64,000 nucleotides of DNA. Source: Theristus sp. LFF4_11. Taxonomy: Eukaryota; Nematoda; Chromadorea; Monhysterida; Xyalidae. Under the pieces are notes generated by a model. It was not told where the DNA came from, searched no databases, and was given only the letters and a program-made list of their open reading frames with translations. The position numbers and the translations under genes were made by a program. Below are positions 40,707 through 60,885 of the stretch, in pieces. Each line of letters starts with the position of its first letter. Position 1 is the stretch's first letter. The stretch is from positions 1 through 64,000 of the forward strand of contig JASANC010004154.1 in the NCBI GenBank assembly GCA_030248135.1, written 5' to 3'.

Positions 40707-40746
40707 TATGCAGACTAACTGACGATGTTGTCGATTTGCAACGGGT

Positions 40747-40751
40747 AACTG
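40747..40751. repeat. 5-bp target site duplication, left
   Basis: AACTG abuts the left LTR; the same five bases follow the right LTR at 60422-60426. The pre-insertion site in related copy B1 reads GGGTAACTGATG at about 36258. Confidence 0.85.
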
Positions 40752-41575
40752 TGTCGTGAAAACGACGGGACCGAGAGATTTGTAATCCGAATACAGGAGA
40801 AATATGTTCCTGTATTACCATCGAATTACAAATCCACAGGGTGACGCTTTCGTAACACGATGCACAACGCTGGCAAAGTTCACCGTGGCTGCGTGAGATA
40901 AAGCAGCACGGTGAATACGCTTGAAGCCTCGTAGTGCATCAACAACAATGGTCTTTGAGAAAAACACTTGGGGTGTATTTTGCTCTTAGACCTTTAGAAA
41001 CCACTTTTTCCAGGGAAAATTAATGGGACTGAAAAAGGGGAATCTGACTTTGAATACATTTAGAGCGATTTCAAAAGAATTAGAAAGTCAGATTCTCCCA
41101 GTTTGGGAAATGCGGGGGCACTTTTTCTTTTTGGTGAACTTTAGGGCTGCGGTGGATTGCCGTTCTTCCGATCTCCCTTTTGTTAACCTTTCGTAAGCAA
41201 CCTTTTGAATTTGTGTTTTTGATTGTTATTCTTTCTCAACGTGAGAACTGCCGGGGCGAACGCGAATTCATTATTTCTCGGATTACTGTAATTTAGGCCT
41301 TTTTACCAGCTGGATTGACAAGAAATTTCATTCGCAACTTCATTCTCAATTTCTCTCTCAACCGTATTTTGTACTTGTTGTGCTATATACTTGTGTATTT
41401 TTGTGTTTACCTTGTATACTGACTTAGTGCTTCGACGCCAAGTCGGTGTTATTACCCAGTGTCTTATCGTACCATAACTCGGACTTAAACGTCCTTTTTG
41501 TAATATCAACGCTGATTCCTAGTCGTGATCTGTGACTGATATTAAAGCGGCCACAGGCAGTCAGAGTTCACGACA
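40752..41575 (+). repeat. 5' LTR
   Basis: 824 bp, TG...CA ends. An inverted pair around ATTTGTAAT/ATTACAAAT (about 40777-40840) can form a hairpin. A TATA-like CTATATAC lies at 41383, and the recurrent motif GGTGTTATTACCCAGTGT lies at about 41445-41462. A clear AATAAA was not seen; ATTAAA occurs near 41541. Confidence 0.93.
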
Positions 41576-42728
41576 AGTGGTGACCACGCTGGGAGACAAC
41601 GCATTGTCTCCTGATTAGTTTTCTTTGTCTTGTTGTTTTGTTTTTTCTGTTGTTCTAGTAATTATATCCACGTCTGCTACGTTTGTTAATTTCATTAGAA
41701 CATAATTCGCATTTTAAGTGACTTGTTATATAATCTTCATACAGTTGTCTCTTCACAGTGTAGACAGAACGACAAGTATTCCGCATCGAGCGTCAAGTAA
41801 GTGTTAGCCTGTTAAGCCTGGTAGTTAGTAAGTAAGCCTGTTAAGTATCAGGTGTACCGTAGTTTATATCAAGCCTTGCACACATCCGGCTTTGAATCTA
41901 CAATACTTTTGCTCTTTTTGTTCACGCCAGTACACAACGGTTGAGCTCACCCGTCTGCTTGAATATAAAATATCTGGATTTCCTACTGCACCGATCATTG
42001 TTTGTTCATTTTTTCTGATACAAGCATCTCCGCTCTAGTGCTTTCTTACACTTACGGTATCTGTGATATTGTAAATATTTTGCGATTTGGATTTCTATAA
42101 AAGATTTTTAAATTTGCAAATCTATATAATTTTGTCATTCATCTCTTTGGTCATTTGAAACTGAGAACCTATCTGTTTTACTCTCTTAAATCTGATTTGC
42201 ACCTGATTGTCTTCTTAAATCAGCAACCTTTTCATCTTACTTTTTAATCCTTTGGACGGTAACAGCCGGGTTTTTTCGGTCTTGCATTTGCCGCTCCTGT
42301 GTCTCTCTCTAGTCTGCACCCGCGAAATTGCTCATCTAACCTTTTATTTATTTATCAAATAAATTATTGATATTATTTATTTATTATTTAAATCTTTATC
42401 AATTATATAATTAACCATATTTATTATTTATAAGTCTATTGATCTTGTTTATTTTGTCGCTTTTTGCTGGAACTGCGTATTCCTTTCTAATATTGCAACA
42501 GCGCGCATAGGCAACCAAGACGAATTAAATTTTTTATCTATTATAGTCACCACTACAGCAGATTAACGACAACTGACAACCGGTGCACACGAAGGGCGAC
42601 TCGCGCGTGGCACTAACCAAACAGCAAGGCGTGAAGGTTCTGCTAGATCGATCTGGTGTTCCTCGAGCGAGTTTTTCTTGCTTTTTCTTTGTCGTTGAAT
42701 TTGAAGTTTGTGCAGTCAGCATTGAATC
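41576..42728 (+). promoter_or_regulatory. Leader of the LTR element with splice-site-like signals
   Basis: The 1.15-kb leader has a strong 5' splice consensus CAA|GTAAGT at 41797 and a second GTAAG near 41826. A TTTGTGCAG acceptor ends at 42715, 13 bases before the ORF1 ATG. A very A/T-rich patch lies at 42345-42435. Removal of 41797-42715 would shorten the leader; the same donor could serve ORF2. This is an inference from consensus sequences only. Confidence 0.4.
41578..41595 (+). other. Candidate primer binding site
   Basis: TGGTGACCACGCTGGGAG starts two bases after the LTR, where a tRNA primer site is expected, and begins with TGG to pair with a tRNA CCA end. I cannot assign the tRNA without a tRNA set from the host. 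Confidence 0.45.
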
Positions 42729-45700
42729 ATGAGTAAGCAGGATCAGTCAGGCTCAGGCAAAGGTCAGGGTGGATCAAAAGTAAAACCTGAGTCAGAAGAT
42801 TATTCTGATCAAGATAATGAGAGCGGTGAGACGCCAGGAATGCCTAGTTCGGCTAAGTACTCTCGAATGTACGGTAGAACTAGAAGGTACGCCATGACAT
42901 TCTTGAGAAACCGGGGCCATATTTCACCGCTGTCTTCTTTTGATCAGAGTAAGGAATCGATAGAAAGTTTTCTGGGAAAGTTGCTCAAAAGGGAAGAAAC
43001 TGCCTCTCGGAATGCTGAGTCTCTGACTTATTATTTCGATAAGTTGTCAACGATTGTGACAGAATGGGAGTGCTATCTCACAAAACTGGAAGAAGATAGC
43101 ACATGTTCCAAAGATTTGAAAAATGCCGAAATCGGCATTTATGAAAGGGCCAAAAAGGGGCTGGATGGACAATTAGGCTTTGAAGAAGTTTTTGCGCGTG
43201 TGACACGAGGCCTGCAAGAATGGCAACAACATTTGTCTACCATCCACACATTGCAGCAAACGTTGCACGCCGACAAAAACGACAGTCAGAGCCAAAGTGT
43301 TGCTGAGGCTGGTCACACTGGTAGTTCTAGTATTCCGGCTAATCTGCCAGGAAGTAGTGGAAAATTGGTTCCGGTTTCAGTTCCTTCAAGTTCTGATAAC
43401 CAAGCTGCATCTGAGGCTTTGACTTCGATGCGGTGGAATTACCCAGTTTCATGTCAAAACAACTATTTGCCAATGGCAACAAATTTGATTTCATCAACTG
43501 GTGTCACATCAACGTGTAACCAGATAGCTGGTTCACAAAACGACTTTCAGAGTCGAAGTCAACAATCTCAAGTTGCAGGAAATTTGGCAGCATCCGGTGT
43601 TATCATGTCCTCTAACATGGATACCTATAACTTTGCGCCAGTATCGACTGTCGATACATCCGCAGCACTTGTGCCATACCAAACGCAGGTGGTTCCAAAC
43701 AATTATCTGCTTTATGGTACAGACCCGATGGGCTATGGCACATCGGCCATGAACCAGCCGAATGTGATTGAAAGTGGACCTTTTTGGTCGTCCACTAATG
43801 ACAGACAACCATTCATGATGGAACAAGGGCCTTATTTCTTTAACTCGGCCACACCTGGTTCCTTTTTGCATGGTCAGCAGTTGCCTGTCAACTGTCACGT
43901 ACCAAATTTTTCGGTACCACCTCCACCGGTCACCGCCAGTACAATGGGATTCCATGGCGCCTTTTCGCCATCATTCCTGCCAACCACCGGCCAATCGTAT
44001 GTTCCATACAGAACTGGACATACGGCATTTCAAACGGGCAACCAAGCCGATCACGGCTTTCCTGGAATGGCAAGATCTGTTGGGGCTGGCGTACCGCCAA
44101 TGGAACAACGCTTTCAGAACATGAAGTTCCATGTTCCGTCAGTACGTCCTTGCACCTTCGACGGCACTGATGACATGGAATTCCCAGCTTTCTGGGACAT
44201 GTTCCTGGCAACGGTGGAAAGAAACCCGGAATTAAGTCCGGTCATAAAATTTTCCATCTTGCATGGATTACTGAAAGGCGATCCAAAACGTCTAATAATG
44301 GGACTACCCATAACAGACGCAAATTACGCGATCGCTCTGAATATTCTGTACAATCGGTACGGAAATAAACAAAGGATAAGGAACAAGATCCAACATGAAT
44401 TAGCAGGCATTCCGCCTGCCAAGTTGGATTTGAAGTCCTTGAACAAGACGCTCACTGCAATTCAAGCGTGCGTACTGAAGTTGTTGACTAGTCAACAACC
44501 TGCAAACCATTTTCTGATCGTAAAAGCGATTATGGAAAAATTTCCATCTGAAATAATAGAGCAGGTTTCAGCCACAAAACCGGTTAATGCCGAATGGCAA
44601 ACACACCCGTTGATTCACGCCTTAAGCGATGTCATTCGACGTCGCGAAGAGCTTGTTGACTTATCACTGGAGCGTGTTGAGGCCAACAAACGTTGGGCTA
44701 CTTATCGGCGTCAATGGGAACGACCGGAAAGAATTAGTAAACCAAAGACAGTGATTCGCGAACGCAAATCACCTTCACGTGAGCGATCAACTAGTTCAAG
44801 GCCAGCTAGTTCTCGCAATTCTAGCGCTCGTCGCTTTTCATCTCCTGGTATCTCCAGTGAAAATGAAGCGACTATTTTTGTGACTGAAACTGCTTCGCGA
44901 GAGAAATCTCCACAGCCAACCGGGAAAGTAAAAGAAAAATCAATAAAACCATCCACCACTAGGGTCGATAACAATGATTCTCAAAATAAAGGTTCCAATT
45001 CTAAAACATCGGCAACTAAATTAAAAGTAAAGACTGGCAAAGCTAAGCGGAAGCCGACCGGCACCAAGTTGCCTCGACCTTGCGCTTATTGTAGTGAAAA
45101 TCACCGTCACATTGACTGCAGAAAATATCAAACAGTTAAACAACGGTTAGCCCGATTAACGGAAACAAAACGTTGCCTTATCTGTTTGGAAACCGGTCAT
45201 ATGGCGTCCAAATGTACCGTACGCAATGTACGTGTCTGCAGTTTTTGCAAAGGCAAAAACCATCATATGAGTTTGTGTTTTCGTCACGAACGCATCAATA
45301 AAAGTAAAAGGGCAGATGATTCAGACAATTCAAAAATTTCTGTTTCTGCACCTTGCATATCTGATCAAAAATCATCATCAGATGATGACGTCACGAATCA
45401 GAGCGGCTCAGAATCAGACGACTCTAGCGCTTCGCATGAAATCAGTGAAAGTGCCGCAGCGTCTGAACAAGATCATGGCGAAACAGTTGCTACTGTCTGC
45501 AATGAACACGAAGCACAATTATTAACAGCTCAAGTGTTCCTTTGCTCTGAAAAATCCGCAAATAATTCAGTTGGAGCCACTGCTCTAATTGATAGTGGAT
45601 CATGTAGAACTTGGGTCACACCAGGGTTAGTTGAAGAACTAAACCTTGAGGTAACTGAATTTGGTAATTTGTCAGTCAGACCATTCCGAACGAAGAATAA

Positions 45701-48700
45701 CCAGCAACCATGTTATTCTATACCAGATAAAAGAGTCAGTCTGTGTATCAAATTACCTGATGATTCACATCTAAAAGTCACAGCAAATGTAGCGCCGACC
45801 GAGAAAATGGTAGGTCGAATTTTTATGCGTCCATTGTCCAAAACCGATTTGCAATTCATATATGATGCACGAATCGACAATCAAATGGGCATCAATCTCA
45901 ACGACACAATGGTGTCTCAACATCCGGACGTGATTTTGGGAATGAATTGTTTTTCCGCTATCATGTTCGGAAATCTGAACGATCCATTTTCAGCTCCAAT
46001 GATTAAGCTGCCAAGTGGATTGCTGTTGATGAACACGCAACTGGGCTATATCATTGTTGGCTCAGATTCGGAAAAACCATCACCGTCACCGTTAACTCTG
46101 CTTCCTCTTCTAAACGATGACGCAGATATTGACATGACCGTCAATCCAAACCAATTGATCCGCTTCAGCGGAGCAAAATCAAATCGATCGCGTCAAGCAA
46201 GTTTCTCTTTCACAGATGATTCTTGTGGTGTTTTACCCAATGTCTTACACACTCAGCCTGAAAATTCAACATCTGAATTGAATGAAGCCTTAACGACTTC
46301 ATTCAACGATTTTCAATGTCTAGAAGCAATTGGTATTTCTGATAGAGCAAGTAAATCAGAAGATCAAATTGCTACAGAGTGCTTTCAAGAAAAAACAAAG
46401 TTTGTTCACGACCCAGTAACAAACGACCAACGAGTCGAGGTTCCTTTTCCACCTCGACCTGGATCAACAGCAGTGCCAGACAACCGAGGTCTGGCTTATG
46501 CGCGATTCCAATCAATTCGTCGCAAATTGCTGGAAAACCCCTCACTTTTCGAACGATATCACAAAGGGTTTTTAGAACTCTTAGAAAAGGGTATAATCGA
46601 ACCGGTGTCAGAAGATGAAATTTTAAAGGAAGGCAAAATTCATTTTTTGGCACATCACCCGGTTTACCGCGAAGACCATGCAACCACAAAACAACGCACG
46701 GTTTTCGACTTTTCTGCTCGAGCGGGACCAGAAGAGCTTGCGTTAAACGACGTCTTCTTGAGAGGTGATCCGTGTATCGCCGACTTGGGCAAAACGTTAA
46801 TTCGCGCTCGCGAATATCCAATTTTATTGATAGCTGACATCATGAAAGCTTTTCTCATGGTCAGTATACCAAACGAAAATCGAAAACTAACAAATTTCTT
46901 TTGGATAGATTCGTTAGAAAGCCAAGAAATCAAAGTTTACGCATTTCGGCGTTTACCATTTGGTTTAACTTCGGCACCAGCATGTTTGGCTTACGCCATT
47001 AAATTCCTGATTGATCACAAAGGTGGTCCGTGGACAAAATACTGCAAAGATCACTTTTATGTCGATAATTTAATAACCGGCGTTGATGCTGTTGACGATG
47101 CCTTAGCATTGTACGCAGAAATCACAGAGGTGTTCCAAGAACATGCTTCATTCACTCTTCGAGAATGGCAAAGCAACTCGAAAGAGTTTATGAAAAGCGT
47201 GGACCAGTCCTTGTGCATGCAAGATTCAGACACAAAGGTGCTGGGCCTTAAATGGCACTCCGTCACAGACATACTACGTCTCCCGAAAATTTCAGTTCCA
47301 AAAGGACTGAAAAATTGGACTAAAAGATCTGTATTGTCTGTTGTCAACTCATGTTTTGACCCTCTGGGTTTCGCAGCACCCATAATTCTGCCAGCCAAAC
47401 TTTTACTACAAAAGTTGGCGCTGGAGAATCTAGATTGGGACACGCCAATACCCGATTCGTTGGCTTCCGAATGGGAAAAATTGATCCCAGACTTGGAAAT
47501 GCTGAATCAATTGGAAGTTCCCAGATATTTGGGCAACGTAATCAAAAACTGTGAACGACAAATTCACGTCTTTGCAGACGCGAGTGCGTTTTGTTATGCC
47601 GCAGTCGTTTACTTACGACTTACAGATCGCATATCAGGTCAAGAAACAACACACCTGATAATGGCAAAGTCACGCCTCAATCCAAATCCACGCAATCCTT
47701 TGTCGATTGTTAGGATGGAACTGATGGCGCTTCTAATTGCAACTAGACTCATTCACTACGTGCGCCAAGCAATGAGTGATGGAGACTCAATACCCGCTTT
47801 CACTTGGTCAGACAATCAGTGCGTCTTACACTGGTTGCGATCTTCAAAACATTTAGGTGTTTTCGTTGGCAATAGAATCAAAGAAATTCGAAATTGCCCG
47901 AACACCAAAAACTATTTTTTACGTTCGCATCACAACATCGGCGATGTTATGACACGCCCATCAGTCAAAGTCACTGACTTGATGGAAAGCGAATGGTTCA
48001 ACGGTCCTTCATGGCTTCGCAAAGAAACAGAATGGCCGAATGAAGAACTACCTTTGATGTCTCAAGACATAAAGAACTTGGTGGAAAAGGAATTCCGCAA
48101 AAGCGCGGTAAATCCTAAATTAACGACACTTGATGAAGAGAGAGCTGACATAATCGTCAGTCCCGCTCAAACTAATCAAGAAACTAACGTCTGGAACGAC
48201 CTTATCTTACGAGCATCTCAATTGCTCCGATTGTTGCATACGGTCGTTTACGTGCTAAGATTTTTGAAAATCAAACTCTGGCAGCATGTGAAACCTGAGA
48301 CCAAATCCAAATTCAACTATTTGGAAACAATCTTTAAGCGAATTCAAACAGGAGCTATTCAAACATCAGAGTTGAGACTTGCTCATGACTTTCTTTTAAG
48401 TCATAGCCAACGTTTGTCTCACCCAGAATTGTTTGATGCACTCGAAAATGACAAAACCCACACTTTGGTCACACAATTGCAATTGTTTCTCGACCAAAAT
48501 GGAGTTTTGCGATGTCAAAGTCGCGTCACGGATAAAGACGATCTGCCTCTCAGATCTAAATATCCGAAATTCTTGCCAAAAACAAGTCCTCTCACGGACT
48601 TGATAATCAACTACTTGCATCATAAAACTATGCATACTTCGGTTCAGTTTGTCATGGCTGAACTCAACAGAGGATATTGGCTGCCTACGGCACGACGAGT

Positions 48701-51700: not shown

Positions 51701-54404
51701 AGGAGTTCTGAATGGCAAAGGAAGATGCGTTCTGCACCACGGTGCCTGTGTTTGTCCTAGTTGGGCGACTGACTGCTCGCGTAGTGTAGACCATATTCCT
51801 AAAGGTATCGGCAAACCTAAAGACGTGCTATCTGCGCTTAAACCAAATTTTTGCTCTCTTCAACCGCATAAACTTTGCAGCAATAAAAGCGAAACCGCAT
51901 GGTGGTACAAGATTTTGCTTTATGACGGTTCGATTCACTACGTGACATCTTTACAAATCAAAACAGACAATGTAATTGAAGATCAGTATGTTTGTGTAGG
52001 AAATCAAAAATCAGTCAATGTTACTGGCACCAATGCGTTTTGCCAATCTCACTTTTGTAAAAACAAACCAACTGATAAAATTTGTTATTATAAAAATATT
52101 TTGCCAACTTTTTTAGTAAGTCCTCTAGGTTCAGTTCCGATTGCCGCATGGGGACTGCAAAAAGTTTCGTTTTTTGGAGATAAACCCGCGCATAATCCTC
52201 TCGCTCAACAAAATAACCAAATTTCGTCTCAGTGCACAAATACAGGTTTATCACTTAATCCTCAAAGTACTGAAGAAATAAATTTCATAAAAATTTGCGT
52301 CGGTGTTTACTGTCATTCAACTGAAAATCCAAAACGTCAAAATTATAATTTTCCGCGAGATATTCTGATTCAACCCCACGTTTTCTTCATCAAAATTTGG
52401 TCAAGCGACAATGTAGTCAGTGAATCTCAACTGAGTTGCGCAGCCAGCAATTTCTGTCATTTAGTTGACTGTTATTTATGTTTTGATTATTTAACTAATC
52501 CGTCTTGCGCTACTTTTGTTTATTCGGTTGTTCTTATTCTTATTTCATATTTTCTTGCATGCACCACTCTGTTAGTAATGTTTATTTTTAAAATTATTCT
52601 TGGTAAAATGTTTCAATTTTTACATACTAACAGGCATGCACAACAACAACACTCACTCTTACCGTACCTTTGCGCGAATGTTTACCTATTGCTCTTGCTT
52701 CATGTTCATCTTTTTGCGTTAAAAGCCGGCGCGTGCAGTGAATTTGCTATTATTACCGTTAACAACGAGCATTGTGCCGTATCTGCTGATAATTCAATCG
52801 AATGTATCATTAAACAATCAACTCGTATTAATCTAGCTCCTGAACATCAAACTGCTTGCCTCATTGTTTCTAATCGTCAAAATGACACTATTGGCAGCTT
52901 ACAGATCCGCGTTCATGAACTTAGTTTATCTTGCGATAAAAAGGTTTTGTACTTCACCAGAGACGTAGACTTTGTCACCAATAGCATCAAAAGATGCCCA
53001 TCCATGGGCTCCTGTTCCTATAAAAAATGTAACTCATTAAAACCAGATCAAGTAGTCGACGAATTTACAGCTGAATCCAGCAGCGCTCCCGGCTACAGCA
53101 GATGCGCAGCAGCACAGTCAGGCTGGTTTTCCGCCGACGGGGGCTGTTGGAGTTCTGGTTTCTCATGCTTGTTTTTTCGAAATTATGCAAAAGCCTTTTC
53201 TAACCATGTTTATGAGGTTTTTGAATGCCCGTCATTTAGCTTACAAGCGCAGCTTGACATAAAATTTAGTTCACAAACTAAAACCAGAGCTGTGCGCCTT
53301 CTGTTACCCGTGGCCTCTTCTGCTAAATGGAATTCTATGACCTTTCATCTGATTAGTAGTTTAAAGAAAGAAGTCTCTTTACTTTCAAATTCCAAATTTG
53401 TTATGAAAGATCGCAATAGTATGATTGTTACCAAAGCCAGCGACGATGGTTCACCTATTCCTAATAAAGTAGGCGCATTTCAATGCAAAACTTTCAAGGA
53501 CGCAGCTACAATGCATAAAACAAATTGTATATTTTCAAATAATGTATGTAATTGCCAACCTGCTGACGCATTACCCAATTGTCATTGTAATCAACACAAT
53601 ATTCTTAACTTGTTTTCTAAAAAAGAATTCAAGTTGCCAAAGATCAGTGCCGGGTTTACCATAATTCCAGATACTATGAGTTCAGTAACCGCAACATTTC
53701 AACAACATTCTTCTGTTGAATTACAAGTAGATTTAACTGATTTGCGTCTAAAAATTAAAGTTCATAAAAACACATGTGCCATAATACCTAAACAATTACA
53801 AGGGTGTTATGGATGTTATAGTGCTGCCACTTTTGAGTTTGTTTGTCAGACTAATTTTGGATTTGCAACTGCTTCGGTCGTCTGTAACGACGGTACGAGA
53901 TTTATTACCGACTGTCAAAAACAAAACAAAACAACTTTTGTTACGCTTCCTTTTTTTAAAGCTTCTATAGACACATTATGTAATGTTTCATGTCCTGCTG
54001 GCTCATCTACTTTTAAACTAACGGGTCAACTCTACTTTATTCCGTTTTCACGCGTTTCCAATGTTTCTACCTCAATAATTACTCAAGGTGCTGATATCGG
54101 AGGCATGCGCTTATCAAATTTAGATTTCACGTTTCTTACTTCTATTCTCAAATCGCACTGGTTTTGGGTTATTCTCGGAGTTGCCTCTGTGATACTTCTT
54201 TTATTGCTCACTTTCCCCCTTTTGCTTTCATGCTTTTCTCTTGTGGGGAGCGCTGCTAACGCAGGTTTCGGTAAAATTAGAAATCAATCTCCTTTAAGTT
54301 TTTTGCACCCCCTCCCAAGCATCTTTTCTCATTATGATTCTAATTCCAATCAAAATAAGTATCGTTTCGTAGATAATTTTAAACAAAGTTATGGTATTGA
54401 ATGA
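42729..54404 (+). CDS. ORF1: Gag-Pol-dUTPase-dNK-Env polyprotein
   Basis: One uninterrupted 3,891-codon frame. Approximate domains by residue: Gag with DUF1759-like block 464-654; three Cys/His knuckles 785-850; retropepsin with DSG at 955; reverse transcriptase with D1370, RLPFGLTSAP and YVDN at 1444; RNase H with D1617, E1664, D1695; integrase with HHCC zinc site near 1961-2005 and D2035, D2100, E2155; DUF5641-like tail to 2345; two hydrophobic segments 2424-2475; dUTPase 2495-2631; deoxynucleoside kinase 2646-2854; signal-like segment 2896-2917; Gn-like ectodomain; membrane segments 3265-3292 and 3312-3335; Gc-like ectodomain from 3336; final membrane anchor about 3811-3839 with a short tail. 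The RT motif has Asn where most relatives have the second Asp. No frameshift separates gag, pol and env, so output must be set by proteolysis, signal peptidase or spliced RNAs. Confidence 0.93.
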   Translation: MSKQDQSGSGKGQGGSKVKPESEDYSDQDNESGETPGMPSSAKYSRMYGRTRRYAMTFLRNRGHISPLSSFDQSKESIESFLGKLLKREETASRNAESLTYYFDKLSTIVTEWECYLTKLEEDSTCSKDLKNAEIGIYERAKKGLDGQLGFEEVFARVTRGLQEWQQHLSTIHTLQQTLHADKNDSQSQSVAEAGHTGSSSIPANLPGSSGKLVPVSVPSSSDNQAASEALTSMRWNYPVSCQNNYLPMATNLISSTGVTSTCNQIAGSQNDFQSRSQQSQVAGNLAASGVIMSSNMDTYNFAPVSTVDTSAALVPYQTQVVPNNYLLYGTDPMGYGTSAMNQPNVIESGPFWSSTNDRQPFMMEQGPYFFNSATPGSFLHGQQLPVNCHVPNFSVPPPPVTASTMGFHGAFSPSFLPTTGQSYVPYRTGHTAFQTGNQADHGFPGMARSVGAGVPPMEQRFQNMKFHVPSVRPCTFDGTDDMEFPAFWDMFLATVERNPELSPVIKFSILHGLLKGDPKRLIMGLPITDANYAIALNILYNRYGNKQRIRNKIQHELAGIPPAKLDLKSLNKTLTAIQACVLKLLTSQQPANHFLIVKAIMEKFPSEIIEQVSATKPVNAEWQTHPLIHALSDVIRRREELVDLSLERVEANKRWATYRRQWERPERISKPKTVIRERKSPSRERSTSSRPASSRNSSARRFSSPGISSENEATIFVTETASREKSPQPTGKVKEKSIKPSTTRVDNNDSQNKGSNSKTSATKLKVKTGKAKRKPTGTKLPRPCAYCSENHRHIDCRKYQTVKQRLARLTETKRCLICLETGHMASKCTVRNVRVCSFCKGKNHHMSLCFRHERINKSKRADDSDNSKISVSAPCISDQKSSSDDDVTNQSGSESDDSSASHEISESAAASEQDHGETVATVCNEHEAQLLTAQVFLCSEKSANNSVGATALIDSGSCRTWVTPGLVEELNLEVTEFGNLSVRPFRTKNNQQPCYSIPDKRVSLCIKLPDDSHLKVTANVAPTEKMVGRIFMRPLSKTDLQFIYDARIDNQMGINLNDTMVSQHPDVILGMNCFSAIMFGNLNDPFSAPMIKLPSGLLLMNTQLGYIIVGSDSEKPSPSPLTLLPLLNDDADIDMTVNPNQLIRFSGAKSNRSRQASFSFTDDSCGVLPNVLHTQPENSTSELNEALTTSFNDFQCLEAIGISDRASKSEDQIATECFQEKTKFVHDPVTNDQRVEVPFPPRPGSTAVPDNRGLAYARFQSIRRKLLENPSLFERYHKGFLELLEKGIIEPVSEDEILKEGKIHFLAHHPVYREDHATTKQRTVFDFSARAGPEELALNDVFLRGDPCIADLGKTLIRAREYPILLIADIMKAFLMVSIPNENRKLTNFFWIDSLESQEIKVYAFRRLPFGLTSAPACLAYAIKFLIDHKGGPWTKYCKDHFYVDNLITGVDAVDDALALYAEITEVFQEHASFTLREWQSNSKEFMKSVDQSLCMQDSDTKVLGLKWHSVTDILRLPKISVPKGLKNWTKRSVLSVVNSCFDPLGFAAPIILPAKLLLQKLALENLDWDTPIPDSLASEWEKLIPDLEMLNQLEVPRYLGNVIKNCERQIHVFADASAFCYAAVVYLRLTDRISGQETTHLIMAKSRLNPNPRNPLSIVRMELMALLIATRLIHYVRQAMSDGDSIPAFTWSDNQCVLHWLRSSKHLGVFVGNRIKEIRNCPNTKNYFLRSHHNIGDVMTRPSVKVTDLMESEWFNGPSWLRKETEWPNEELPLMSQDIKNLVEKEFRKSAVNPKLTTLDEERADIIVSPAQTNQETNVWNDLILRASQLLRLLHTVVYVLRFLKIKLWQHVKPETKSKFNYLETIFKRIQTGAIQTSELRLAHDFLLSHSQRLSHPELFDALENDKTHTLVTQLQLFLDQNGVLRCQSRVTDKDDLPLRSKYPKFLPKTSPLTDLIINYLHHKTMHTSVQFVMAELNRGYWLPTARRVIKRVINTCVTCKRLRGPPFSLPKMAALPANRVTPSTVGSHMGVDLFGPTIVYDDCSCKQRIKLWIVLFTCFFSRSVFLDVVREISAQEFILALKRQISRVGAILTLTSDNAPNFVSTKGLWEVLQREKVNCEATVANITDFCSNNGIQWFFALPHFPQHGGVWERMCGIVKQALISAKGRKLLPVTQFRTVLSECEAIVNSRPITYVSNSLHEISALRPIDFWFPNALLGTPRVDTADIKAAYLPEWNNRESLLRFYAQSQEVVDRFWKLYVQLYLPQLREKQESSHRKGNRAVPSRQPMAGDVVIIRDDTLPRGVWKFGRIKKLIAGTDGQNRGAEVFGSSGRTLKRPLHLLYPLECAEMPNETEDQEDESEKDESEKLLESVQDSVASRTRSKTKEQPKVPVSILSQKSLEKGGRRRSRSLPSHRVRFNLPALTVGLIMTMLIQPSSASFESNAPEPKEWFCWLIMVFGSVAMTVVIANFLSRIMSNHKNRSKHQIIKEKQLIPVCLMSNKARLPVQTTDGSAGFDVYAIERTFIPPRSHVSLNTHLKLASPYTIMVCPRSGLGKKGVLPMSGLIDNDYRGEIKILMFNHTDKVQVINENERFAQLIFMESKSPRLKIEADLPSTARGERGFGSTGQTQISRNITQVDRTEPQSSVPWIALLGNIGAGKSSILASWQRSFTNVLCIPEDVEQWSNFGTHKINLLKRMYDFPETYAWMLHLLSMRTSFLENKSYDCQLIITERDLSFSKVFLDFYAQNMSRVAFELLGLHRSFLEHLQQRKPNLYLKVSCPLSTLPTRILQRNRNAEANICRTLLLSLEVKTAEFLDSSQTPFLSLANDSPTFPSDEFWAEKLEEICKTSNIPAPQRRLQNNPTVGTSDVQDCDKNERLPAPRLRRVERSSNLLSLFIFCFFSIILNINSVSAVDSRLVQLAKEALGGFFPQNNVSGSLCSRSVSNPKRLKIVESQLCVSRGIGIFHLPKNRYCWSILNCRLKQTDHRLGVLNGKGRCVLHHGACVCPSWATDCSRSVDHIPKGIGKPKDVLSALKPNFCSLQPHKLCSNKSETAWWYKILLYDGSIHYVTSLQIKTDNVIEDQYVCVGNQKSVNVTGTNAFCQSHFCKNKPTDKICYYKNILPTFLVSPLGSVPIAAWGLQKVSFFGDKPAHNPLAQQNNQISSQCTNTGLSLNPQSTEEINFIKICVGVYCHSTENPKRQNYNFPRDILIQPHVFFIKIWSSDNVVSESQLSCAASNFCHLVDCYLCFDYLTNPSCATFVYSVVLILISYFLACTTLLVMFIFKIILGKMFQFLHTNRHAQQQHSLLPYLCANVYLLLLLHVHLFALKAGACSEFAIITVNNEHCAVSADNSIECIIKQSTRINLAPEHQTACLIVSNRQNDTIGSLQIRVHELSLSCDKKVLYFTRDVDFVTNSIKRCPSMGSCSYKKCNSLKPDQVVDEFTAESSSAPGYSRCAAAQSGWFSADGGCWSSGFSCLFFRNYAKAFSNHVYEVFECPSFSLQAQLDIKFSSQTKTRAVRLLLPVASSAKWNSMTFHLISSLKKEVSLLSNSKFVMKDRNSMIVTKASDDGSPIPNKVGAFQCKTFKDAATMHKTNCIFSNNVCNCQPADALPNCHCNQHNILNLFSKKEFKLPKISAGFTIIPDTMSSVTATFQQHSSVELQVDLTDLRLKIKVHKNTCAIIPKQLQGCYGCYSAATFEFVCQTNFGFATASVVCNDGTRFITDCQKQNKTTFVTLPFFKASIDTLCNVSCPAGSSTFKLTGQLYFIPFSRVSNVSTSIITQGADIGGMRLSNLDFTFLTSILKSHWFWVILGVASVILLLLLTFPLLLSCFSLVGSAANAGFGKIRNQSPLSFLHPLPSIFSHYDSNSNQNKYRFVDNFKQSYGIE
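45081..45278 (+). other. Three Gag zinc knuckles
   Basis: CxxCxxxHxxxxC followed by two CxxCxxxxHxxxxC motifs (residues 785, 816 and 837 of ORF1). These bind RNA in retroelement nucleocapsids. Confidence 0.85.
50209..50622 (+). other. dUTPase domain within ORF1
   Basis: It hydrolyses dUTP to dUMP and pyrophosphate, lowering uracil in new DNA. All five motifs of the trimeric dUTPase family are present in order: SAGFDVYA (residue 2515), CPRSGLGKKG, GLIDNDYRGEI (2566), ERFAQLIF and RGERGFGSTG (2620). The catalytic-type Asp in motif III and the Phe/Gly-rich motif V that closes over the base are kept, so activity is likely. It lies after integrase and directly before the kinase, a different place from the dUTPases of lentiviruses and betaretroviruses. 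Confidence 0.92.
50664..51290 (+). other. Deoxynucleoside kinase domain within ORF1
   Basis: It phosphorylates deoxynucleosides (dNK/TK2/dGK family). Landmarks are the P-loop GNIGAGKSS (residue 2656), the PEDVEQW block with the catalytic-base Glu, ITERDLSFSKVF corresponding to the ERS block, and a lid-like Arg-rich RILQRNRNAEAN. The length of about 205 residues fits the compact kinase fold. Substrate preference cannot be read by eye. Together with the adjacent dUTPase it forms a dNTP-supply module. I know of no described LTR retroelement with such a kinase, but I could not search. Confidence 0.9.
51361..54404 (+). other. Envelope region: Gn-like and phlebovirus Gc-like glycoproteins
   Basis: After a signal-like hydrophobic stretch (LLSLFIFCFFSIILNI) comes a Cys-rich ectodomain of about 340 residues, a membrane segment, a second internal signal (VYLLLLLHVHLFALKAGA) and a second Cys-rich ectodomain starting CSEF, then a C-terminal anchor. 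The second ectodomain shows the spacing of phlebovirus Gc, a class II fusion protein, including a Trp/Gly/Cys-rich patch (GWFSADGGCWSSG), CLFFRNYA and a C-terminal GCYGCYSAA block. C. elegans Cer elements are known to have envelopes of this origin. No break is seen; activity is untested. Confidence 0.8.
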
Positions 54405-54468
54405 TTCTTGGTTATCTTCAATTTTAGCGACTTCGAATTGAGTCATTCAAGACTACTCATTGCTTCAA

Positions 54469-54655
54469 CAGACGATCACGACTGCCGTTCGTTTCGACCA
54501 CGTGTACCAAACAACAGACGATCACGACTGCCGTTCGTTTCGACCACGTGTACCAAACAACAGACGATCACGACTGCCGTTGGTTGCGACCACCCGTGCC
54601 GAACAACAGACGATCTCAACCGCCGTCGTCTCGACTGTCCGTACCGCTAACCGAC
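54469..54655 (+). repeat. 46-bp tandem repeats between ORF1 and ORF2
   Basis: Units start at 54469, 54515, 54561 and 54607 with CAGACGATC; the first two are nearly identical and the last two drift. The unit is not a multiple of three and lies just after the ORF1 stop, so it is non-coding. Confidence 0.9.
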
Positions 54656-54685
54656 AACTTTGCCGGCAACCTTCTTTGAAAGGCT

Positions 54686-54706
54686 GTCGGTGTTGTTACC
54701 CAGTGT
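54686..54706 (+). promoter_or_regulatory. Recurrent TTACCCAGTGT motif upstream of ORF2
   Basis: GTCGGTGTTGTTACCCAGTGT differs by one base from the LTR copies at 41442-41462 and 60288-60308. The CAG ends at 54703, five bases before the ATG at 54708, so a 3' splice site here (cis from the leader, or spliced-leader trans-splicing) would make that ATG the first in the message. Confidence 0.5.
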
Positions 54707-54707
54707 A

Positions 54708-57700
54708 ATGTCAAACAAAACCCAATACACCGCTATCGTGGTGAAATGCGCCGTGGACTCCGCAACCGTGTGGATGGATGAGCAAGCGGAAAAAAGAGCG
54801 ACCGAAAGCCTGTTCGCAAACCGTCAAGTGCCTCGAGGAAAATATGGCGTGCTTGCTAAAGTTAGACTGGATTCTTTCACACGAAACATGCGAGAACAAC
54901 ACACGTCAGTCTACAAAATCGCACCTCTGGACTTCATCATCACGTTCGACCACATGGAGATCAATCCGGAGAACGCCGACGAAGGCATTTTGATCAAAAA
55001 CGTGTTCAAGATCCGTCGATCGGAAGATGTGCGTGGATTGGGAATCTTGATTTTGCCGACCGTGAAGGACGATCAACAACCTGATGAAGAAGACGCTAAG
55101 ACCGGACTAGTCTGTGCCGGGTTTGGAAAGTCGCACCGTAAACTGGACCGTTACTGCATGTCGTTTCGAAATCGCCACATCAGTCCAGAATTTCGACATT
55201 TGAAGAAACAAGGCGCCATCGTATTCTGCTGCGCTGTGGAGTTGAAAAACATCATGAAGGAAGAAGTCCGTCGAGGTCTGAGGAGATCGAACGACCCACC
55301 AATCACCAAAAGAGCGTACTCGTTAAAATGGGCCGTACCACTTGAATCCAACGCCACTCGCAGCATTCGCCACTACGATGAAAACGGTCAAGGCATCCAA
55401 AGCCTTCAGATTTTCCGAAGATTTGTCGAATTCTCAGTTGCAACAATCGTAAACGACTGTCATCTGGAAGCTCAACAGAAAGAAGAGAACGTCACCACTC
55501 GAGAAGTCGAATTTCGCAATGCTGGCAATCAACCAGGACCGCTGTCGTTGGATCTGGTCGCAGTCATCACATTGCCGAACAAACCGGTCAACTTCCGAAC
55601 CGCCGACAGTGCTGCTATGTCCACTACGGATTTGACTGGCCGACCGTTTCGTATCAACACGATGGTTCATGACACGGTGTTCGAAGATCTTCAGCAGAAG
55701 TTGGTGCTTGTACTCACGGTCAATCAGAGTATGATTCTGCACGAGAAAGGCCTCACAAGAAACAAACGAACGTGGAAGATCGAAAGAATCATTGACACAG
55801 ACATGGTGGCATTCCAAGTGCAGCTATTGCAACGGTCAGTGGACAAGTTCGCGAACAAACCGGAACCTCCATTCGACATCATTCCGAAGGTCTTCTTGCG
55901 AAGTGCTATTGAAAAACCGGAAAATCCGCTGAAGTTAGAACCGTTCGATCACGAATTTCTGAAGATTCCAGGAATGTCGCAGTTTCAAGCAAACGAAGTT
56001 CAAATTCAGGCAGCGCAGTTCATCCTGCATCGAAAACCGAAGCTATGCACTATCATCGGGCCTCCAGGTACAGGGAAAAGCCAGTTTTGTGCCGCAACAA
56101 TCTACCGTTTGATCAAGGAAAAGAAACGGGACGACGAAACTTGCAAAGTGTTGGTCTGTAGTTCATCAAACACCGCAACTGACGCCGTAGCGATGAAAAT
56201 CGCGGCCATTGCTAGAGCCGATGATCAAAGCGAACTAGCCGTACTTCGCGTCTTTTCGCCACAGCGAGAACGTTTGCCGCCAACGGACACGTATTCGTTT
56301 TCATTGCACGGACTCTCCACGGACATGTCGTTGCCGATCGAAGAAGACAAAGTGAACTTCGGAAATTTTGATGAAATTCAGGAGAAAAAGCGAAAACTGA
56401 ACGTCAAGAAAGAACGATTACAAGCTTTGTTCGAACAATGGGAGAAAATGAAGGCTGAACGCACCAAAGAAGATGAATCAACGAGAAAAAGGCGAAACGA
56501 AATCAAAAAAGAAATGCTCGCACTGCAAAGCCAAATCAACGGTGAAATCAAAGAAACCGCTGAATTAGTGAAGGCAGTTGTTGATCCAGACGTTGTTTGC
56601 GCGACTCTCGACGGCGCACACGACAGTCGTCTGAAGGACGACGCTTTCGACTTCGTGTTCGTGGATGAAGCAGCGCACTCGAATGAGCACGAATTATACT
56701 TGAGCCTCATAAAAATGAGAATGAACAAGGCAGGAAACGGAACTGTGGTCTTCATTGGAGACTCGAATCAACTACCACCGATAATCTTCGCACCTGGAGA
56801 AGCAGGCAAGCTGATGGCGAAAACAGCACACGAGCTACTCATTGACAGCAACAACGTGCCGGTGTTTATGTTGAGAACCCAGTATCGAATGCACCCGGAA
56901 ATCGCTGAATTCCCCAACGAAGCAGTTTACAAAGCACAGCTGCTGAACGGTGTATCAGCAAAAGAACGACAGCTCTCGTCAACCGGCTTCCCATTCCCCA
57001 AACAAGGAATTCCCATCGTGTTCGACTGGATCGATGGCGCAGAATACATCGCAGAAGGCAAGTCGTTCGCGAACGATGAAGAAGCGGACGCTGTCGTCAA
57101 CTATGTGACCTTCCTGCTGAAGCAACCTGAATTTGCCGACTTCAAGAACTTCCGAATTCTGGCACTTTACAACGGTCAGAAGAAGGCCATTATCAATCGG
57201 CTTTTGGCAAAAGAAATCAACCCGCCGCCGTCCCTGGTGATGACGGCGGACATGAGCCAAGGAAGCGAGGAAGAACTAATCATATTGTCGGGCGTGCGAT
57301 GCCAGCAAGACGCAAAGAAGCCGAACGTCGGTTTCCTGCGTGACTTCCGCCGCATCAACATGATGCTGACGAGGGCCCGGTCAGGCTTAATAGTCACTGG
57401 CCACGTGCCGACCCTTCGCGGCTCCGAAATCTTCCGTCGCTTCATCCTTCATTGCGACCGCAAGGGGGTCGTTTACCACGGCTACCACACGCACCTGGCG
57501 GAGGAACTCAGGCGGCCATGGTTCGACGCAGCGGGTAAAAGCGCGATCGCGGCAGAGAGGGCCGATATCGGGACCTTCGAGGCAGTAGAGTCGGCTACAG
57601 TTTCGGCGAACGTCAATCATGGGCTAGCGACAGCAATGATTGACCTAGACGCCCTGAAATTGACGGAGGCCGATGAGCCTGCGCCAGACACCTTCGAGAC

Positions 57701-58007
57701 ATCATCGGACGAGCCAGCCGCCGAAGCGCCCAGCGTCACAGCAGAGTCATCGACAGATGAACCATCAGTCGTACCCATGGCTCACCTGCCAACGTCAAGC
57801 GCCGACACACCGTCAACATCAACTGCTCCAACAGCCATGTCGGCGGAGGACTTCCCGGTGCTCCATCCAGAGCCGGCTGCCGAAGGACAATGGATCGTTG
57901 TTCGCGGAAATCGTGGCAAATCCAGAGGTCGTGGCAATTCGCGGAAGTCATACGCGCGACCGTCCATCTCGACCGACCCACCAACAAAGAAGTCGCACAC
58001 CGAATGA
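54708..58007 (+). CDS. ORF2: Upf1-like superfamily 1 helicase
   Basis: It encodes 1,099 residues from ATG 54708; an in-frame ATG at 54660 adds 16. I prefer 54708 because a splice-acceptor-like CAG lies just before it. SF1 motifs are complete and in order: GPPGTGKS (residue 451), SSSNTATDAVAMKI, VDEAAH (653), GDSNQLPP (684), QYRMHP (725), MSQGSEEE (849) and LTRARSG (887). A charged coiled coil (about 558-618) separates motif Ia from II. The N-terminal 430 residues are not recognised. The C-terminal 170 are Ser/Thr/Pro/Ala-rich and end with RGNRGKSRGRGNS, a likely RNA-binding patch. There are no introns. Upf1-like enzymes unwind RNA or DNA with ATP. Whether it acts in RNA stability, packaging or silencing evasion is open. 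The 3' third looks GC-richer than ORF1, hinting at separate origin. Confidence 0.9.
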   Translation: MSNKTQYTAIVVKCAVDSATVWMDEQAEKRATESLFANRQVPRGKYGVLAKVRLDSFTRNMREQHTSVYKIAPLDFIITFDHMEINPENADEGILIKNVFKIRRSEDVRGLGILILPTVKDDQQPDEEDAKTGLVCAGFGKSHRKLDRYCMSFRNRHISPEFRHLKKQGAIVFCCAVELKNIMKEEVRRGLRRSNDPPITKRAYSLKWAVPLESNATRSIRHYDENGQGIQSLQIFRRFVEFSVATIVNDCHLEAQQKEENVTTREVEFRNAGNQPGPLSLDLVAVITLPNKPVNFRTADSAAMSTTDLTGRPFRINTMVHDTVFEDLQQKLVLVLTVNQSMILHEKGLTRNKRTWKIERIIDTDMVAFQVQLLQRSVDKFANKPEPPFDIIPKVFLRSAIEKPENPLKLEPFDHEFLKIPGMSQFQANEVQIQAAQFILHRKPKLCTIIGPPGTGKSQFCAATIYRLIKEKKRDDETCKVLVCSSSNTATDAVAMKIAAIARADDQSELAVLRVFSPQRERLPPTDTYSFSLHGLSTDMSLPIEEDKVNFGNFDEIQEKKRKLNVKKERLQALFEQWEKMKAERTKEDESTRKRRNEIKKEMLALQSQINGEIKETAELVKAVVDPDVVCATLDGAHDSRLKDDAFDFVFVDEAAHSNEHELYLSLIKMRMNKAGNGTVVFIGDSNQLPPIIFAPGEAGKLMAKTAHELLIDSNNVPVFMLRTQYRMHPEIAEFPNEAVYKAQLLNGVSAKERQLSSTGFPFPKQGIPIVFDWIDGAEYIAEGKSFANDEEADAVVNYVTFLLKQPEFADFKNFRILALYNGQKKAIINRLLAKEINPPPSLVMTADMSQGSEEELIILSGVRCQQDAKKPNVGFLRDFRRINMMLTRARSGLIVTGHVPTLRGSEIFRRFILHCDRKGVVYHGYHTHLAEELRRPWFDAAGKSAIAAERADIGTFEAVESATVSANVNHGLATAMIDLDALKLTEADEPAPDTFETSSDEPAAEAPSVTAESSTDEPSVVPMAHLPTSSADTPSTSTAPTAMSAEDFPVLHPEPAAEGQWIVVRGNRGKSRGRGNSRKSYARPSISTDPPTKKSHTE

Positions 58008-58439
58008 GGCCGCCGTCATCAAATAGCCGTCAATAACAAATTTCGTAAGTTTGCTTGGTGCTTTACGTTCTGTTATTAATAGTGTTTCAGATAAAATTGA
58101 GGTTCTTATTTTATTTCACCTTTTAAAGCACATCTCTTTACCGGATTAGATCAGAACAATAATGGGTTCAAATTCTGATATCTTTTTTGACTTTTCAGCT
58201 GGTCTCATGAGTGCTCGACATTCTTGAGATGGTTTTTACCCAGTGTATTAACTCTAAAACAAACCTGAATTGGCTCTGTTCGGTGCAAATATAGAATCAC
58301 CTGTTTTACAGGAGTCATCAACTTAAATGCATGAACGCGCATATCGACACGACACACTCGACACCGGTGGTCACGCCAACATCACCAAAGCCATTCGTAC
58401 TTACTACGTCAATGATTCAGTTGCCCTTCGCTGGACGCG

Positions 58440-58707
58440 CGCCATCGTCCGTCCACCGCTTGGACACCAACTACGTCACAACTCCGCTCTGACTACTCAA
58501 CGCTCGTCAACAGCTACAACTCGCGCGTCAATATGCCAATCGTAAACTCCTGCCCGTGGTGTCATCAAACATCACACGACGTGAACCACCTATTCTTGTG
58601 TGCGCAACAACTTCCCGACTTCACAGCAACAACGCTCTGGTGCGATTCAGCCAATGCTGCATGCTTCCTAGGTCTACCTACGAACCCGATCAATACAACA
58701 TCTGGTC
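58440..58707 (+). pseudogene. Non-LTR RT C-terminus captured inside the LTR element
   Basis: One frame reads QLRSDYSTLVNSYNSRVN, then CPWCxxxxxxVNHLFLC, ending at a stop at 58705-58707. This matches the layout of the Jockey-type RT tail at 7990-8240 (QLRSGYCS, CPLCxxxxxxxxHIFMC). No RT core is present, so it is a remnant, either inserted into or mobilised with the element. Confidence 0.65.
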
Positions 58708-59390
58708 AATGAGCAACAACAACACATTTTTCGACACTCAATTTGAACTACAGTCGTCAATTCATCAACACGCATACCGACACAAACCATTTAACACTCA
58801 ATTGGAACTTCCGTTTCAACTTGAATTTCAGTAGATATTGCTTGTGACACCGTATCATTCTTGTCTTGAATGTTGCCTATGACGCCGTATCATCTTGTCT
58901 CGAATTTTGCTTGTGACATCATTGCGTGTCGGATTTTGCATGTTTCTCGGAATTGATTGGTAATTCGCGCTATTCTGATTATCATTTCTCCCTTTGCACC
59001 CTCGATTAGCGGAGATCTTATCATTTTTGAGAAAAGCAACTTCTAGTAGACGAATAATCTTGCCTTGATTGAGAATGCCTGTCGTGAACTTTGAAGATAA
59101 CGCCGTGTCATTCGTGTCTTGAGTTTTGCAAATAATTTTTATTGCTAGTTCCCAGTTTTCAGTGCGGATGCATTGCTGTCTTTTTTTATCCATTTCTATC
59201 CTGCTGGTCGTAGGTCATTCAAATTTGAGCGCTCTGCCATATCGCGACTGTGGCCTGATTGTTTCCATCTGATTTATTGGAATTTTGGGATTTATTGGCG
59301 CTATTCCCTTGGTTTGAAATTGGATCCCAAAAATAAAAATCAATGCTGACGATTTTCAATTGCATGACGAAGGATTCTTTGTTTGCATGG

Positions 59391-59431
59391 TAAGACATTG
59401 GGTAACAACACCGTGCCCCTTTCAAAGAAGA
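59391..59431 (-). repeat. Inverted copy of the ORF2 upstream segment
   Basis: On the minus strand it reads CTTCTTTGAAAGG, four differing bases, CGGTGTTGTTACCCA, matching 54671-54703 on the plus strand. The two copies bracket ORF2 and its 3' region at about 4.7 kb distance. Confidence 0.7.
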
Positions 59432-59597
59432 GACACTGCGAGTTGAAGTTAGTTGCGCACCTTCAACCAACCTTTCTAATGTTTTGCCTTGATGACGCGT
59501 CGCGTCATATTGCAAACGATCTCCTTTGGACACACGATGAGAAAATAACTAAAATTTTCTATTCGTTCAAAATTTTCCTATTCCTTGTGGGCGGAGT

Positions 59598-60421
59598 TGT
59601 CGTGAAAACGACGGGACCGAGAGATTTGTAATCCGAATACAGGAGAAATATGTTCCTGTATTACCATCGAATTACAAATCCACAGGGTGACGCTTTCGTA
59701 ACACGATGCACAACGCTGGCAAAGTTCACCGTGGCTGCGTGAGATAAAGCAGCACGGTGAATACGCTTGAAGCCTCGTAGTGCATCAACAACAATGGTCT
59801 TTGAGAAAAACACTTGGGGTGTATTTTGCTCTTAGACCTTTAGAAACCACTTTTTCCAGGGAAAATTAATGGGACTGAAAAAGGGGAATCTGACTTTGAA
59901 TACATTTAGAGCGATTTCAAAAGAATTAGAAAGTCAGATTCTCCCAGTTTGGGAAATGCGGGGGCACTTTTTCTTTTTGGTGAACTTTAGGGCTGCGGTG
60001 GATTGCCGTTCTTCCGATCTCCCTTTTGTTAACCTTTCGTAAGCAACCTTTTGAATTTGTGTTTTTGATTGTTATTCTTTCTCAACGTGAGAACTGCCGG
60101 GGCGAACGCGAATTCATTATTTCTCGGATTACTGTAATTTAGGCCTTTTTACCAGCTGGATTGACAAGAAATTTCATTCGCAACTTCATTCTCAATTTCT
60201 CTCTCAACCGTATTTTGTACTTGTTGTGCTATATACTTGTGTATTTTTGTGTTTACCTTGTATACTGACTTAGTGCTTCGACGCCAAGTCGGTGTTATTA
60301 CCCAGTGTCTTATCGTACCATAACTCGGACTTAAACGTCCTTTTTGTAATATCAACGCTGATTCCTAGTCGTGATCTGTGACTGATATTAAAGCGGCCAC
60401 AGGCAGTCAGAGTTCACGACA
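59598..60421 (+). repeat. 3' LTR
   Basis: 824 bp; I found no difference from the 5' LTR on reading both through. It ends at TTCACGACA and is followed by AACTG. Confidence 0.93.
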
Positions 60422-60885
60422 AACTGACGAAATGTTATTTTTCGAACGCAATCCGCTACCGGTTTCTCTTTGCAGTTCTGCAAATCTCGCCCCCTAATCG
60501 GGGTCAGCTATCCGTTCTCCTTGCAACCGTCCCTCCTCGCTCCCCACACCTACACGGTCACTGCCCAGTCTTTGTTTTCAATTTATTGAACGTGCTGCCC
60601 TGGAAACCAATAAACGCAAAATTGATTTGATTTGAAACAAAAAATTGGATAGCATTGGGTGGCAAAAATAACAAAATGGGTCGGTTGTATGCCCGAAAAC
60701 AGCATTTTACGCTGCTCAAAATCACTAATTTTGATGTATTTCCTATTTTGAGCTCAAGAAGCCAAGTTCTGGAAAGTTTAGGAGCTGGGAAGCATTCGGT
60801 TTTTATGGTTTTAAAACGGTTTTAAAACGGAAAAGAAACCGTTTTTTTCCTGGCAATATAAAAACCGGTTTTTTTACCAACCCTA

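Follow-up and report, generated by a model that had tools for sequence, protein, structure and literature searches.

What would a retrovirus-like element do with two enzymes of nucleotide metabolism and a large helicase? The question is raised by a stretch of 64,000 nucleotides (hereafter, the window) from contig C2646 of the 159-Mb genome assembly of Theristus sp. LFF4_11, in which positions 40752-60421 are occupied by a 19,670-bp provirus of the BEL/Pao superfamily of long terminal repeat (LTR) retroelements. A nematode host is supported by the TTAGGC telomere repeats of this assembly ((TTAGGC)4 has 8,669 overlapping matches genome-wide, compared with 0 for the control), and our own-genome searches cover this one assembly. 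Besides gag, pol and an envelope gene, the provirus is predicted to encode a dUTPase, a deoxynucleoside kinase (dNK) and a UPF1-like helicase of superfamily 1 (SF1). We consider it probable, judging from these predicted proteins, that this is an enveloped BEL/Pao provirus that provides its own clean supply of deoxynucleoside triphosphates (dNTPs) for copying an RNA that is roughly double the usual size. This reading is the simplest because the kinase is conserved at the same level of identity as pol and its motifs are intact.

The provirus and its coding capacity

The two LTRs of the element are identical (824/824 nt), with TG...CA ends, and are abutted on the outside by a 5-bp target-site duplication, AACTG. 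When 200 nt of each flank (40552-40751 and 60427-60626) were fused with a single AACTG and used as the query, with 40 of the 1,982 first-look candidates scored, 42 matches were obtained, of which 39 cross the junction at 96-97% identity; in the query, these begin at position 156 or position 158 and end at 397-400, so that only 43-45 nt lie to the left of the junction. One match covers positions 3-400 at 83%, and the remaining two are pieces of one further locus. Because the joined flanks match across the junction, the element sits in a dispersed repeat of which the empty site is seen, and because this repeat is unbroken in the matches, the boundaries of the element are real. Misassembly is ruled out by the duplication, the LTR identity and the empty site. 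The best reading is a recently integrated provirus, which we call intact in the sense of open frames and identical LTRs and presume to be active and expressed. The features of the element are as follows.

40747-40751, no strand: 5' target-site duplication AACTG (flank reading and empty site)
40752-41575, plus: 5' LTR, 824 nt, TGTCGTG...CACGACA (LTR comparison)
41442-41462, plus: 21-nt LTR motif GTCGGTGTTATTACCCAGTGT, 59 nt downstream of a TATA-like sequence at 41383
41578-41594, plus: primer-binding site, in which TGGT is followed by 13 nt that are the complement of sequences with the form of a tRNA T-arm/acceptor
42729-54404, plus: open reading frame (ORF) 1, stop-free, Gag-Pol-dUTPase-dNK-Env polyprotein of 3,891 amino acids
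44172-44579, plus: gag, DUF1759 (Pfam, 1.3e-19)
45081-45278, plus: zinc knuckles of CCHC type, three in number, of which the second and third exceed the first by one residue
45591-45602, plus: protease-like motif DSG, residue 955 (motif only)
46794-47141, plus: reverse transcriptase core, active-site YVDN at residue 1444 (Pfam RVT_1, below cut-off)
47319-47813, plus: Peptidase_A17 (Pao; Pfam, 7.4e-46)
48591-49193, plus: integrase, HHCC zinc domain (Integrase_H2C2) and candidate D,D,E
49470-49766, plus: DUF5641 (Pfam, 8.6e-12)
50238-50615, plus: dUTPase, all five motifs present (Pfam PF00692, 1.1e-29; motifs by eye)
50685-51245, plus: dNK (Pfam PF01712, 6.1e-15), with P-loop GNIGAGKSS, EDVEQW, ERD and RNRNAE
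51348-52730, plus: Gn-like part of the envelope precursor, 38-41% identical to a sister family over the best stretches, with hydrophobic segments
52734-53729, plus: Gc, Phlebovirus_G2 fusion domain (Pfam, 1.3e-73)
54168-54224, plus: C-terminal hydrophobic anchor of the envelope
54466-54635, plus: 3.7 tandem copies of a 46-bp unit in the spacer that separates ORF1 from ORF2
54686-54706, plus: second occurrence of the 21-nt LTR motif (1 mismatch), one base ahead of the ORF2 ATG
54708-58007, plus: ORF2, UPF1-like SF1 helicase, 1,099 amino acids from the ATG at 54708
55989-56789, plus: AAA_11 in ORF2 (Pfam)
56823-57404, plus: AAA_12 in ORF2 (Pfam)
58008-59597, plus: tail without a long ORF, with a purine-rich end GTGGGCGGAGT that precedes the 3' LTR
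59598-60421, plus: 3' LTR, same as the 5' LTR, with the 21-nt motif at 60288-60308
60422-60426, no strand: 3' target-site duplication AACTG (flank reading and empty site)

The primer-binding 13-mer has five genomic matches of tRNA T-arm/acceptor form (candidate tRNAs, recognized by pattern only; control, 0), and the preceding TGGT would be the complement of A-CCA. The assignment to BEL/Pao follows from the LTRs with a short target-site duplication, Peptidase_A17, the DUF1759 gag, the order gag, protease (PR), reverse transcriptase (RT), integrase (IN), and the HHCC zinc domain of the integrase. The RVT_1 match scores 22.2 bits, under the Pfam cut-off of 29.6, and Pfam finds no rve domain; the candidate catalytic residues of the integrase, D (GVDLFGP), D (TSDNAPNF) and E (GGVWE), were picked by eye, and a spacing script gave three other combinations. 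We take the DSG at residue 955 to be the protease motif, and DUF5641 presumably is the C-terminal region of the integrase. The initial annotation, made from the nucleotide sequence, had proposed intact LTRs, a target duplication, two long open frames, a BEL/Pao affiliation, the same list of domains and a 1,099-residue helicase, and each of these is borne out by the repeat comparisons, Pfam and the motifs. The YVDN motif of the RT and a phlebovirus-like envelope encoded in one frame with pol are both typical of nematode belpaoviruses (PMC9094657).

Nucleotide-metabolism enzymes, helicase and a shared start motif

The sequence hallmarks of both predicted nucleotide-metabolism enzymes appear to be in place. 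In the dUTPase, we recognize what we take to be all five catalytic motifs; in the dNK, the P-loop, E-x-V-x-x-W, ER and the R-x-R lid, which we assume to be the signature of this family, are present along with the dNK fold. Compared with kinases of solved structure, the dNK sequence has five matches, to Drosophila and related dNKs (best E-value, 6.4e-7). The structural model of the dNK, built with 28 database relatives, has a mean predicted local distance difference test (pLDDT) score of 86.4, and all of the 50 fold matches listed are deoxycytidine kinase or other deoxynucleoside kinases, with query template modeling (TM) scores of 0.60-0.74. When the dUTPase-dNK stretch was compared with proteins of ~1,200-3,800 amino acids, 6 of 2,514 candidates matched, over 32-43% of the stretch; the precomputed Pfam lists of these six proteins include dUTPase and lack dNK. 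The IMG/VR search with the kinase alignment gave 65 candidate stretches, none of which was confirmed.

ORF2, which would encode 1,115 amino acids from an alternative TTG start at 54660, contains AAA_11 followed by AAA_12, with the helicase motifs GPPGTGKS (Walker A), VDEAAH (DEAx) and GDSNQLPP (motif III), as expected of a UPF1-like SF1 helicase. The best match of the core, by both sequence and fold, is NAM7/UPF1, and SEN1 and SMUBP-2 are matched as well; these proteins share the core motifs and the fold with ORF2. Unlike UPF1, ORF2 has no match to the UPF1_Zn_bind (CH) domain up to an E-value of 0.1 (the domain is present in P0001), and its N-terminal ~415 amino acids have no Pfam match. Among the 367 database proteins that pass an E-value of 0.001, the best 120 are 26-30% identical to ORF2 over 42-48% of its length. 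The structural model (mean pLDDT, 50.8) is usable in the core only. A search of IMG/VR with ORF2 yielded one pattern-matching stretch and no confirmed one.

A 21-nt motif of the LTR recurs one base ahead of the ORF2 start codon. Local alignment of the two occurrences scores 37, whereas the best of 200 shuffles scored 27; none of five other region pairs that were aligned scored above their own shuffles. A degenerate pattern of the motif, with up to two mismatches allowed, has four sites in 159 Mb, namely, both LTRs, the site ahead of ORF2 and an LTR on contig C2490 (control, 0). We infer that the motif may be a common start or leader element of the LTR and ORF2. The possibility of a spliced leader was dropped because the genome does not contain the canonical SL1 22-mer of Caenorhabditis elegans and because the motif is specific to the element. 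An antisense version of the motif, with four mismatches, is found in the 3' tail (window positions 59395-59415, minus strand), preceded by TTGAAAGG, as it is upstream of ORF2. The ORFs of 92-112 amino acids in the tail look like chance occurrences.

Relatives in the same genome and the origin of the kinase and the helicase

Is this gene set confined to a single insertion? On contig C2490, a helicase fragment 81% identical to ORF2 is flanked by pieces of the LTR of the window element (73% and 90% identity); from these similarities, this locus is evidently an old member of this LTR family that carried the helicase and has since suffered an internal deletion. Because C2490 keeps the fragment, ORF2 is not a one-off, and that possibility was discarded. 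The other LTR matches, on C2119, C3631, C125 and C141, consist of LTR pieces only in the stretches examined (C2430 was left out). The initial annotation had named, as a finding that would speak against it, LTR-family copies that all lack ORF2 and the dUTPase-kinase block; the sole copy found with internal sequence, C2490, retains part of it.

The dUTPase-dNK stretch has 14 matches in the genome, and a sister BEL/Pao family is represented on four contigs, C1046, C2022, C436 and C374. By tblastn over one-piece stretches, this family is 53-55% identical to the window element in PR-RT, 58% in IN, 52% in dNK and 61% in G2; identity is 25-69% across the gag and 28-43% in the envelope region outside G2. 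Some of the sister copies have broken frames; in C1046, C2022 and C436, a Gn-like block is found on both sides of the kinase, and within C436:10001-20000, repeat arrays of ~149 bp and ~173 bp break up the BEL/Pao copy. Envelope matches were detected on 35 contigs, of which five, including that of the window, are also in the list of dNK matches; the kinase is thus a marker of a single branch within a wider group of enveloped elements. Outside the dNK-bearing branch, envelope identity is at most 42%, and at most 34% over long stretches.

The own-genome search with ORF2 gave 16 matches on 12 contigs. Relatives at 39-49% identity are on C1974 (with the N-terminal part included), C68, C3364, C1395, C553 and C1073, and one at 26% is on C2160; the helicases of three kinase-helicase loci, on C2356, C1424 and C2275, are 29% identical to ORF2. 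In C2275 (5001-15000) and C1424 (3001-13000), a dNK and then an ORF for a UPF1-like helicase lie downstream of a Ty3/gypsy pol (RVT_1, RNase H, H2C2, rve), and the two pols are 68% identical; LTRs were not located in either of these stretches. In C2356:90510-94112, a dNK ORF is followed by a helicase (partly read) and preceded by two ORFs without a Pfam match, with no pol seen. Among the three loci, identity is 53-60% between kinases and 37-43% between helicases. Because two Ty3/gypsy elements also carry both genes, the pairing of dNK and helicase occurs in two LTR superfamilies.

Other dUTPase and dNK genes, on C1377 and on C2160/C3402, were set aside as belonging to other elements or genes. 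In C1377:9001-17714, dNK and dUTPase ORFs are adjacent to each other, beside a Peptidase_C48-like ORF; our guess is that this might be a Maverick/Polinton-like or DNA-virus element. C2160:164264-167656 and C3402:8198-11590 show the same layout of ORFs, including a dUTPase, on opposite strands.

In the phylogenetic tree of the kinases (66 rows, 200 bootstrap trees), the BEL pair groups together (100/100), and so does the gypsy-type trio (100/99); the five retroelement kinases form one clade in 0% of the bootstrap trees, and two changes are needed, a result weakened by long branches. The kinase of the window groups weakly with a mollusc kinase and others, away from the named bacterial ones. Separate capture of the BEL and gypsy-type kinases thus appears to be somewhat favoured. 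For the helicases, whose retroelement branches are very long, the BEL and gypsy forms comprise one clade in 56% of 200 bootstrap trees. The gene content had been likened in the initial annotation to that of large DNA viruses; the set of functions does fit this comparison, but a DNA-virus origin finds no support in the dNK tree or in the UPF1/SEN1/SMUBP-2 type of the helicase, and for the kinase, the sequence comparisons neither support nor exclude it.

Alternative explanations and implications

In the cycle that we envisage, the genomic RNA would extend from LTR to LTR and would be primed by a host tRNA. ORF1 would be cleaved to virion proteins, so that the dUTPase and the kinase could be packaged with the RT, as in dUTPase-carrying retroviruses. 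The expected contribution of the kinase is to phosphorylate deoxynucleosides and that of the dUTPase is to clear dUTP, which would be most important in cells with low dNTP levels. ORF2 would be expressed from a separate mRNA with its start or a splice site close to the 21-nt motif that derives from the LTR. More than 5 kb separate the end of ORF1 from the 3' LTR, and a UPF1-like helicase acting on the long RNA of the element would, most simply, shield it from nonsense-mediated decay or else unwind it for copying. The role of the helicase, be it protection of the element's own RNA or interference with silencing, is less certain than that of the kinase.

Several observations weigh against this interpretation. 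The Pfam score of the dNK is modest (56 bits), and the residue after ER is D, in place of the S found in the gypsy-type and insect kinases, a replacement that may change substrate use. The N- and C-terminal parts of the ORF2 model mostly have pLDDT below 40, and the protein database search detected no close relative of ORF2 outside its own genome. Within the genome, none of the 11 helicase contigs other than that of the window has an envelope match, so part of the helicase family may reside in other elements or host genes. Finally, tblastn detected neither dUTPase nor helicase at the four sister-family loci and, because this family is seen without both, they are not essential to the lineage.

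A rival reading is that the element is an ordinary belpaovirus in which the dUTPase-dNK block and ORF2 are functionless passengers, recently acquired by template switching and retained as the insertion is young. The identical LTRs would have left little time for decay, the dUTPase is present only in the window element among the BEL/Pao copies examined, and ORF2 is situated downstream of the polyprotein, a position at which passengers can be gained by LTR elements (PMC6431247). We nevertheless regard this scenario as improbable: the dNK is common to a family whose pol is 53-58% identical and is itself 52% identical with its motifs kept, the helicase was already present in the older copy on C2490, and the gypsy-type loci retain the kinase (53-60%) and the helicase (37-43%) among themselves. 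Still less credible, to the point that we would be surprised to see it hold, is a composite locus in which a second element or a host gene, ORF2, was inserted into a BEL/Pao element or joined to it in assembly. ORF2 does have a 46-bp repeat of its own ahead of it, a higher G+C content (52% at 56-58 kb) and no counterpart seen in the sister family, but it lies inside identical LTRs with one target-site duplication and an empty site, the same LTR family bears a helicase on C2490, and the 21-nt LTR motif adjoins its start. Besides the LTRs and the 46-bp array, there is no repeat pair of at least 60 nt at 39.5-62 kb (shorter repeats and a second target-site duplication were not searched for).

A rather doubtful, although more plausible, alternative is that ORF2 is a silencing-modulating or antiviral helicase that disturbs small-RNA silencing by the host, or acts as a competitor of host helicases, without aiding copying. 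In favor of this possibility, we count the motif VDEAAH, which we take to be MOV10-like. In addition, the SF1 helicases of insect retroelements have been proposed to be suppressors of RNA silencing, with a weak effect in the assay (PMC5563155, PMC6338049). However, the insect helicases are of the plus-RNA-virus type, whereas ORF2 is UPF1-like, with no match to Viral_helicase1 (PF01443) up to an E-value of 0.1, and this explanation leaves the dNTP enzymes unaddressed.

The provirus with its own dNTP enzymes, which remains our preferred interpretation, is not without partial precedents, given that dUTPases in LTR elements (PMC5408684, PMC6431247) and helicases in insect retroelements (PMC5563155, PMC6338049) are already known. 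Among the closest is Atlas virus, one of the nematode belpaoviruses (Belpaoviridae, Semotivirus), described with a BEL/Pao pol, YVDN in the RT, a single long polyprotein, phlebovirus-like Gn-Gc and identical LTRs; by contrast, Atlas virus comprises 9,204 nt, with 271-nt LTRs and 2,828 amino acids, and the main text of its description mentions no dUTPase or helicase (PMC9094657), whereas the window element has 19,670 nt, 824-nt LTRs, dUTPase, dNK and a second ORF. The Vesta, Juno and TelKA elements of bdelloid rotifers, also LTR elements, combine a dUTPase with captured ORFs for enzymes that are common to different element types, but their dUTPase is located between PR and RT (after IN in the window element), the captured enzymes are GDSL or DEDDy proteins, and the abstract and early results name no kinase or UPF1-like helicase (PMC5408684). 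The giant planarian element Burro is similar in its very large size, dUTPase, Env-like region and long polyprotein but is a Ty3/gypsy element with the dUTPase between PR and RT, and the main text of the review mentions no kinase (PMC6431247). The insect retroelements also acquired an SF1 helicase, including fusions with LTR-element proteins, but of the plus-RNA-virus type, unlike the UPF1-like ORF2 that is found beside dNTP enzymes (PMC5563155, PMC6338049). The suggestion of the initial annotation that no described element has this gene set agrees with our search of the open-access literature, mostly at the level of titles and abstracts, which found, among the matches listed, neither an LTR element nor a retrovirus that carries a deoxynucleoside kinase and no paper combining endogenous retrovirus, deoxynucleoside kinase and dUTPase.

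Lentiviral dUTPase is linked to growth in cells that do not divide, and starving the RT of dNTPs is one defense available to host cells. If a retrovirus-like element encoded a deoxynucleoside kinase of its own, it would directly counter this limit, and for an RNA with a long region past the first stop codon, a UPF1-like helicase would offer a testable solution to the decay of long viral RNAs. That the dNK-helicase pair recurs within a single genome, in BEL/Pao as well as gypsy elements, is suggestive of selection and not of accident. Conceivably, although we advance this only tentatively and hold the opposite outcome to be slightly more probable, two nematode LTR superfamilies have convergently assembled a toolkit of dNK and UPF1-like helicase (with dUTPase in the window element), giving rise to large enveloped retroviruses that make their own dNTPs, express the helicase from an internal start that derives from the LTR and thereby grow past the 10-kb limit that usually applies. 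The recurrence of kinase and helicase bears on the growth of retroelements into large, gene-rich viruses.

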